From positions 673,001 through 737,000 of the forward strand of contig NZ_AP024907.1 of NCBI RefSeq assembly GCF_024347135.1: a stretch of DNA of 64,000 bases, given 5' to 3'. Shown here in pieces: positions 44,637 through 46,448 of this stretch. Under the pieces are notes generated by a model. It was not told the origin of the DNA. It did not search any database and saw only the letters and a program-made list of their open reading frames with translations. The stretch comes from Vibrio spartinae (GTDB lineage: Bacteria; Pseudomonadota; Gammaproteobacteria; Enterobacterales; Vibrionaceae). Each line of letters begins with the position of its first letter. Positions within the stretch are counted from its first letter, which is position 1. A program made the translations under genes and the position numbers.

Positions 44637-45302
44637 CTATATGAAGTGATGAGCGAGGATCTGCGCGGTAAATTGTGTCCGTAGATAAAATCCCCGGGGA
44701 CGTGTCCGAATTATTTTTCCGTGATAACCATAAGCTTCCGTTTTGACACGGCCATTGGCTGCTTTAGGGCGTAATTGAAGGATCTCACCATGTCTGGCGG
44801 TTACTTGTTCGATCTGGCCGAGTACAATGAACTCCATGAGTTCTTCCCAGTCATTTTTGAGTTGTGCCTCTTGTTCTGGTGAGGGGCTCCATAATAGCGG
44901 TGCACCGACTTTTCTGTCCGAGAGCGGAATATCTCGTTCTCCTTCAACGGGGATCCAGAGGACTCGTGACAATTTGTTCCTGACATGACTGTTTTCCCAA
45001 GTCAAACCATGGATGCCGGTTAATGGTGCCACGGAGACAAATGTGGTTTCGAGTGGTTTGCCAACATAGCTGATAGGGATACTTTTCAGCTCAATGCCTA
45101 GTTTTTCAAAATCCTGTTGCGGTTTGCTTCCTGCGGTTGCACCCAAATGCCATTCGAGAAGTTGCCCGACCCAACCTTTATCTTTTTTCAAATCCATCGG
45201 GACTTTTATCTGGGCAATGTCTGCCAGTTCAGCAAAACTGAGTCCGGCTATCTCCCAAGCTCTTTCAATTAATTCACGCTCTGTCTTTGGTTCTGGTCTC
45301 AT
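44637..45302 (-). CDS. mutH: DNA mismatch repair endonuclease MutH
   Basis: 221 residues from ATG 45302 ([15 protein letters not shown]); a TTG at 45335 is in frame but unlikely. Catalytic elements are visible: [14 protein letters not shown], the acidic Asp in [15 protein letters not shown] (D-x(n)-E-x-K nuclease motif) and [18 protein letters not shown]. MutH nicks the unmethylated strand at hemimethylated GATC sites when activated by MutS/MutL. Divergent from rppH across a 627-bp intergenic region. Confidence 0.95.
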
Positions 45303-45428
45303 AAGATCTTTCGGATGTTCGTGGTAGAAGCGCAACCGTTTAGGATGTAATGCGCGCTAGTTTAACAGATGAAATGAGAGGTCGTCATGGTTTGTCTGAA
45401 AGTACTGTTCTTTGATAATGTCCTCAAC

Positions 45429-45766
45429 TTATCCACAGGATGCTTGTGTGTGATGATTTATTGCTTCACCATATGGATAAATATACAGGTTTTTTCGCCG
45501 GGTTCTGTTATTTTTCCAGCAAAATCGCGATTGTTGTGTGGATAAAAATGGTGGTGGTTGATCTTTGTTCGATGTGGTGAGGCCGTTGATCCTTGTGAAT
45601 TAAATTGGGAGCATGAGTATTGTGTTTTCTGACTTAATATGTTGATAAATAAGTATTAGATTGATTATTTTGGTGGCTATTGAAAGATTTATTGCGAGAG
45701 GAGAATCTAAATATTGTGAGTAATCTATCACTTTTTCACATAGTTACTCACAGAAAAGGTGAATAA
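45429..45766. promoter_or_regulatory. DnaA-box cluster, candidate DARS2 equivalent
   Basis: Perfect boxes: TTATCCACA (45429-45437, +) and TGTGGATAA (45537-45545, -). TTTTTCACA (45732-45740, +) fits the relaxed consensus TTWTNCACA. One-mismatch boxes: 45472-45480 (-), 45594-45602 (-), 45640-45648 (-), 45715-45723 (-), 45744-45752 (+), 45758-45766 (-). The region between divergent mutH and rppH (45303-45929) holds no gene. In E. coli the DnaA-reactivating site DARS2 lies, as I recall, in the mutH-ygdP (rppH) intergenic region, the same position. Confidence 0.65.
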
Positions 45767-45929
45767 GATCGGCTAAATTTGTCATCTTGTGTTAATAAGT
45801 TAGTTGTCTGAGATGAAATATCAAATTTAGTCCACTGGGTATTTTTGTTTTTATTGTCAATGGATATTTGCTACATCTGGGGATCTATGAAAAAATCAGG
45901 AGAAGTTAAATTTTATTAGAGGTTTGCCA

Positions 45930-46448
45930 GTGATAGATGGCGATGGTTATCGGCTGAATGTCGGAATTGTAATCTGCAACAACCATGGTCAGGTATTCTG
46001 GGCGAAACGATACGGACAACACTCTTGGCAATTCCCTCAGGGCGGAATTGATCATGGTGAAACTCCAGAACAGGCAATGTTCAGAGAGTTATACGAAGAG
46101 GTTGGTTTAACAAAAACGGATGTGAAGGTCATTGGTTCCAGTCGTCATTGGTTAAAGTACAAACTTCCCAAACGATTGGTACGCTGGGATTCACAACCTG
46201 TCTGTATTGGACAAAAACAGAAATGGTTTCTTCTGCGTTTAGAGTGTCATGAGTCTAAAATCAACATGCAGCGTGGAGTAACCCCTGAATTTGATGGTTG
46301 GCGTTGGGTGAGTTATTGGTATCCGGTAAGGCAGGTTGTTTCCTTTAAACGCGATGTTTATCGGCGAACAATGAAAGAGTTTGCCTCGATTGCGATGCCA
46401 TTTAAAGCACGGAAAGTAAAAGGTAAACGGAAAGGGAAAAGAGGATAA
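45930..46448 (+). CDS. rppH: RNA pyrophosphohydrolase RppH (NudH)
   Basis: 172 residues from GTG 45930 ([22 protein letters not shown] 7 bp upstream). The Nudix box is intact within [20 protein letters not shown] followed by VGL. The C-terminus is strongly basic ([14 protein letters not shown]). RppH removes pyrophosphate from mRNA 5' ends to start RNase E decay. It starts the rppH-ptsP operon. Confidence 0.96.

Follow-up and report, generated by a model that had tools for sequence, protein, structure and literature searches.

The closest described relative of the locus analysed here is DARS2 of E. coli, a DnaA-recharging site whose parts follow in the order core, IHF sites, and Fis sites with box V; the passages of PMC4245941 and PMC8682772 that describe this order also report that half-turn displacement of the sites harms activity. 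DARS1 of E. coli, in the bioD-uvrB interval, shares its core geometry with our locus but lies in a different place, upstream of uvrB, and published descriptions give it no IHF or Fis requirement. The E. coli datA site, described as lying between glyVXY and queG and promoting ATP hydrolysis, has DnaA boxes and an IHF site outside the origin in common with our locus, but is without the DARS core geometry. On Vibrio chromosome 1, crtS is like DARS2 a site that acts on an initiator, although that initiator is RctB and not DnaA; a passage of PMC6139311 likens crtS to DARS2, and PMC3937223 also uses DARS as a comparison for crtS. Within Vibrio, DARS2 is an already known kind of site, judging from two published accounts: PMC8682772 (2021) sets side by side the core, the Fis sites and box V of DARS2 from eight strains, E. 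coli and V. cholerae N16961 among them, and PMC6090056 names Fujimitsu et al. 2009 as the source of DARS-like sequences found at the corresponding location in V. cholerae. By these descriptions (PMC8682772 figure 8 legend; PMC6090056), the V. cholerae DARS2 comes from the same family of organisms and the same locus as ours.

Our analysis covered a stretch of 64,000 nucleotides from Vibrio spartinae, referred to as the window. A first-pass annotation of its sequence had noted a DnaA-box cluster between mutH and rppH, the interval occupied by E. coli DARS2, and comparison of gene order bears out this location. The flanking genes are:

44640..45302, minus strand: mutH, DNA mismatch repair endonuclease, left flank (NCBIfam equivalog NF003458, 367.9 bits against a cut-off of 243)
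45930..46448, plus strand: rppH, RNA pyrophosphohydrolase, right flank (NCBIfam equivalog NF001934, 327.9 bits against a cut-off of 241)

With the mutH ATG ending at 45302 and the rppH GTG at 45930, the gene-free region between them is 627 bp long (45303-45929), as had been stated. Further named neighbours in the window are ptsP and, beyond mutH, a Tas-type aldo-keto reductase; the E. coli order around the same interval is tas, ygdR, ygdQ, mutH, rppH, ptsP. The closest RppH among the loci listed is that of Vibrio furnissii (91%). When contigs are assumed to be circular, rppH lies at 0.338 of the half chromosome from dnaA in this genome and at 0.285-0.391 in the 12 Vibrionaceae computed; the corresponding value for E. 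coli, measured from oriC, is 0.412. At the gathering threshold, Rfam gave 0 matches within the 64-kb window.

The list of boxes in the first-pass annotation proved exact. Counting mismatches to the consensus TTWTNCACA, the stretch 45429-45766 holds two perfect TTATCCACA boxes (45429, plus strand; 45537, minus strand), one TTTTTCACA box (45732, plus strand) and six one-mismatch boxes starting at 45472, 45594, 45640, 45715, 45744 and 45758, in both orientations. The elements of the candidate DARS2 that are conserved, or that correspond to described parts of the E. coli site, are as follows:

45429..45437, plus strand: outer DnaA box TTATCCACA on the mutH side, 0 mismatches; at most one mismatch in 57/57 relatives
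45534..45566, no strand assigned: box V TTATCCACA (45537-45545, minus strand) with a Fis-type block; 27/33 identical to the E. coli interval
45635..45647, plus strand: perfect match to the IHF consensus TAAnnnnTTGATW, 0 mismatches
45732..45740, plus strand: core DnaA box III, TTTTTCACA; at most one mismatch in 57/57 relatives
45744..45752, plus strand: core DnaA box II, TTACTCACA; at most one mismatch in 57/57 relatives
45758..45766, minus strand: core DnaA box I, TTATTCACC, identical to E. coli; one mismatch to consensus in 57/57
45790..45798, minus strand: conserved box TTATTAACA, outside the range first annotated; aligns with E. coli TTATAAACA; at most one mismatch in 52/57
45886..45894, minus strand: box TTTTTCATA in the rppH leader, one mismatch in the window; in relatives, 0 mismatches in 51/57 and 1 in 6/57

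The core (45732-45766) has the arrangement box III, 3 bp, box II, 5 bp, inverted box I, and matches E. coli in orientation and spacers. When up to 2, 1 and 1 mismatches were tolerated in the three boxes, the window, the E. coli DARS2 region and the E. coli DARS1 region each contained this geometry a single time, and the E. coli datA region did not contain it; scanning the window with the two spacers varied over 0-7 and 0-10 bp yielded one more match, at 1 and 5 bp. The perfect IHF consensus lies 110 bp ahead of the core pattern, compared with about 100 bp in E. coli, and is accompanied by two one-mismatch matches at 45650 and 45654. At the level of sequence, the IHF motifs sit between the core and the Fis-type block, as in E. 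coli DARS2. Box V lies 207 bp ahead of the core pattern and 197 bp in E. coli, that is, about one helical turn less; these distances were used for the window and E. coli only, because the loose finder returned odd values elsewhere (e.g. 282-285 and 104 bp). We infer from published descriptions that 45534-45566 would correspond to the E. coli box V/FBS cluster. Since the Fis motif in this block is found at one mismatch, and such matches are common in the window and E. coli intervals alike, the case for a Fis-type block rests on homology and conservation: it is conserved as TGGT.GATCTTTG among the 57 of 61 Vibrionaceae genomes aligned. Two further stretches of the interval stood out, namely a conserved TG..T.TATATACAG at 45474-45488, between the outer box and box V, and positions 45767-45783 directly after the core, which read GATCGGCTAAATTTGTC in the window and ATGTGG..TA.GTCTCA in most relatives.

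Two blocks of the interval align with the mutH-rppH interval of E. coli MG1655, and they do so colinearly: the core block (45719-45798) is identical at 54/80 positions, gapless, with E 6e-8, and the box V/Fis block listed above reaches E 6e-5. Primers published for deleting boxes I-III of E. coli DARS2, as given in PMC4585315, bracket to within 3 bp, in a by-eye comparison, the E. coli boxes that align with 45732-45766. A blastn search with 45336-45924 against 20,395 E. coli records (E limit 10) returned matches in 5355/5426 genomes; the top-ranked match (81.8% over 44 bp, E 0.6), the sole one placed, lies inside the mutH-rppH interval of its genome, and in 4132 records the best piece was a 90-95% match. 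The locus resembles E. coli DARS2 in its interval, its core spacers, box I, and the order and approximate distances of the IHF and box V/Fis-type elements. It differs in that the core stands 10 bp farther from box V here, box II reads TTACTCACA and box III is a perfect consensus, identity is confined to the two blocks, and four further boxes are present that are unconserved in Vibrionaceae.

The survey of conservation took in 61 genomes from 13 Vibrionaceae genera. In 58/61, a core differing from the window's 19-mer by no more than 3 mismatches lies 176-184 bp ahead of the rppH start used; the exceptions are G011 (6 mismatches), G002 (7 mismatches) and G001 (short interval only). Divergent mutH stands beside rppH in 59/61. 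In the small genomes G001 (2.6 Mb) and G002 (2.1 Mb), the DARS2 core is lost or eroded. Box by box, counts were made at no more than one mismatch in 57 relatives, which with the window's own genome make 58/61; G002 and G021 (no mutH found in the stretch examined) and one 135-bp interval, taken as G001, were omitted, and the alignment of blocks and leader left out G001, G002, G021 and G036. Five of the nine boxes are conserved (45429, 45732, 45744 and 45758 in 57/57; 45537 in 52/57), and four are not (45472 in 3/57; 45594, 45640 and 45715 in 0/57), the unconserved box at 45640 overlapping the IHF motif. Additionally, two conserved boxes lie beyond the range first annotated, at 45790 (52/57) and 45886 (57/57). 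The IHF motif is weaker in many relatives: at its position 8 of the 57 have 0 mismatches, 21 have 1, 22 have 2 and 6 have 3 or more, so that at least 2 mismatches are found in 28/57.

In a set of named loci, the core was found within 2 of its 19 specified letters in 68/80, a set that is not independent of the 61 genomes because 12/61 of these match named loci. The 12 loci without the core comprise nine from Providencia, Photorhabdus, Xenorhabdus, Proteus and Morganella, together with Rheinheimera, Aliidiomarina and one of two Pseudoalteromonas. In the nine, mutH was not found near rppH; in their genomes a DARS2-type core lies beside mutH in 8/9, and a DARS1-type core beside uvrB in 9/9. Of 295 genomes across the order, 184 matched the core type at no more than 2 mismatches; the other 111 did not. 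The first-pass annotation had considered retention over this distance notable in a two-chromosome genus. Retention of core and site is upheld by the survey, but it is less notable than was supposed, because the V. cholerae DARS2 and DARS-like sequences are already covered in the published accounts cited above.

There are possible explanations other than DARS2 for a box cluster at this position. A chance accumulation in AT-rich DNA fits the four unconserved boxes (45472, 45594, 45640, 45715) out of nine. However, dinucleotide shuffles of the 338-bp stretch gave a mean of 1.2 boxes at no more than one mismatch and reached nine in 0/5000 cases, and the other 338-bp segments of the 64 kb (n=62,736) held five at most. 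The expectation that the count exceeds that of similar AT-rich regions also held, as 10,205 AT-matched segments (GC at most 0.42) had a mean of 0.97 and a maximum of five; with five boxes conserved besides, we regard chance as extremely improbable. The many boxes and the IHF motif also resemble datA, and the site could in principle be a passive DnaA-titration or datA-like cluster that lowers active DnaA rather than restoring it. Its core geometry is nevertheless of the DARS type, missing from the E. coli datA region; it sits between mutH and rppH and not between the glycine tRNA genes and queG. A distinct group of boxes occurs in this genome next to queG and the glycine tRNAs, the neighbourhood of datA. 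We regard a titrating or datA-like role of the window site as very unlikely.

A DnaA-responsive promoter region, in which bound DnaA would repress or activate mutH and/or rppH without nucleotide exchange, is slightly less remote and still quite unlikely. The two genes are divergent and the interval contains the upstream regions of both; the rppH leader is conserved, and the box at 45886, kept by all 57 relatives, lies 36 bp upstream of the start used for rppH. A promoter, on the other hand, would need neither three core boxes held at 3- and 5-bp spacing nor a match to E. coli DARS2, and in eight of the nine genomes where no mutH was found near rppH the core stays with mutH.

The site between mutH and rppH is, on sequence comparison, very probably the Vibrio ortholog of E. 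coli DARS2. This reading, which the first-pass annotation had put forward as likely, is supported by position and synteny, by homology and geometry of the core, by a motif layout that includes the IHF motif and the box V/Fis-type block, and by family-wide conservation.

Protein binding, ADP release and an effect on timing at the candidate DARS2 are predicted by analogy with E. coli, whose known function is the most likely one here. Core boxes III, II and I (45732-45766) would take up ADP-DnaA, and the molecules bound at II and I would face each other. IHF would bend the DNA at 45635-45647, so that the Fis/box V block (45534-45566) could reach the core; ADP would then leave DnaA, and the released apo-DnaA would take up ATP and might thereby restart chromosome 1.

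In order to find other cores, the genome was scanned with the pattern TTWTNCACA-3-TTWTNCACA-5-inverted box, allowing up to 3 mismatches. The 5.19-Mb genome gave three matches, C1:718732 (the mutH-rppH site), C1:1140783 and C2:760409; a reversed control pattern gave one match in this genome and none in 17 other genomes. The core at C1:1140783-1140817 can be called DARS1-like because it lies about 440 bp upstream of uvrB; an IS3-family transposase gene is found nearby. A palindromic box pair with a DARS-like 5-bp spacer at C1:1770307-1770329 was rejected as a DARS core, as it is without box III. It lies near pgsA and an ABC permease gene, its counterparts stand beside the same permease gene in 6 Vibrio loci, and those in G012 and G035 reach 3 mismatches to the core pattern. 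Other box pairs were also seen: C1:3586104-3586131, in the queG-glycine tRNA interval, holds inverted perfect DnaA boxes 10 bp apart in an arrangement unlike E. coli datA, and three genomes (G012, G050, G054) have inverted DnaA boxes 21 bp apart around a GATC-containing stretch downstream of rpoH, with glpE beside the pair in G012.

The third match, C2:760409-760443 on chromosome 2, has three boxes in DARS orientation and spacing with 3 mismatches in total (box III 2, box II 1, box I 0), and its order of box quality differs, the perfect box being in position I. Its neighbours, loosely named, are an FAD-binding oxidoreductase-like gene and a gene for a small RNA-binding-type protein, the latter not found beside the site in the relatives examined. 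From the skew of 20 stretches that were sampled, ter2 is placed at roughly 600 kb and ori2 close to where the record begins; on this basis the site lies about 0.72 along its arm. We aligned 26 sites beside the oxidoreductase-like gene (11 genomes and 15 Vibrio loci; 25 distinct, as L286 and L329 are identical), leaving out sites of Photobacterium, Enterovibrio and others without that neighbour. Box III carries TTATCC in 26/26, though the searches specified boxes II and I only, and it has 1-2 mismatches to the consensus; the opposite side has no box (5-7 mismatches), and conservation is not strong in the flanks more than about 15 bp away. On the second large contig, a core-pattern match was found in 12/17 other genomes (G012, G025, G035, G007, G042, G047, G052, G057, G015, G005, G011, G001) and none in 5/17 (G009, G038, G055, G004 and G002, the last having one on C3). 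In G035 and G052, where dnaA was not located, that contig is assumed from its size to be chromosome 2, and the assignment is uncertain for G001. Outside the genus, the second-contig matches are different sequences, without the oxidoreductase neighbour where examined. In the open-licence literature searched, we found no report of a DARS-like core on chromosome 2, and the word DARS does not occur in PMC11711613 and PMC5854411.

One tentative hypothesis, which we hold to be somewhat less likely than not, is that Vibrionaceae carry a third DARS on chromosome 2, which would recharge DnaA as chromosome 2 is copied, so that the state of chromosome 2 would influence when chromosome 1 is next initiated. 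The chromosome-2 core data support such a site rather than show it.

For the family, these comparisons indicate that a group with two chromosomes has very probably retained the DnaA-recharging site of E. coli, including the spacing of its core and most of the arrangement, and the conserved boxes are now sorted from the four unconserved ones. The chromosome-2 core, if functional, would be a new part. It raises a directly testable question, whether chromosome 2 of vibrios carries a DnaA-recharging site that signals back to chromosome 1; if it does, there would be a signal from chromosome 2 to chromosome 1, the reverse of the known crtS link.
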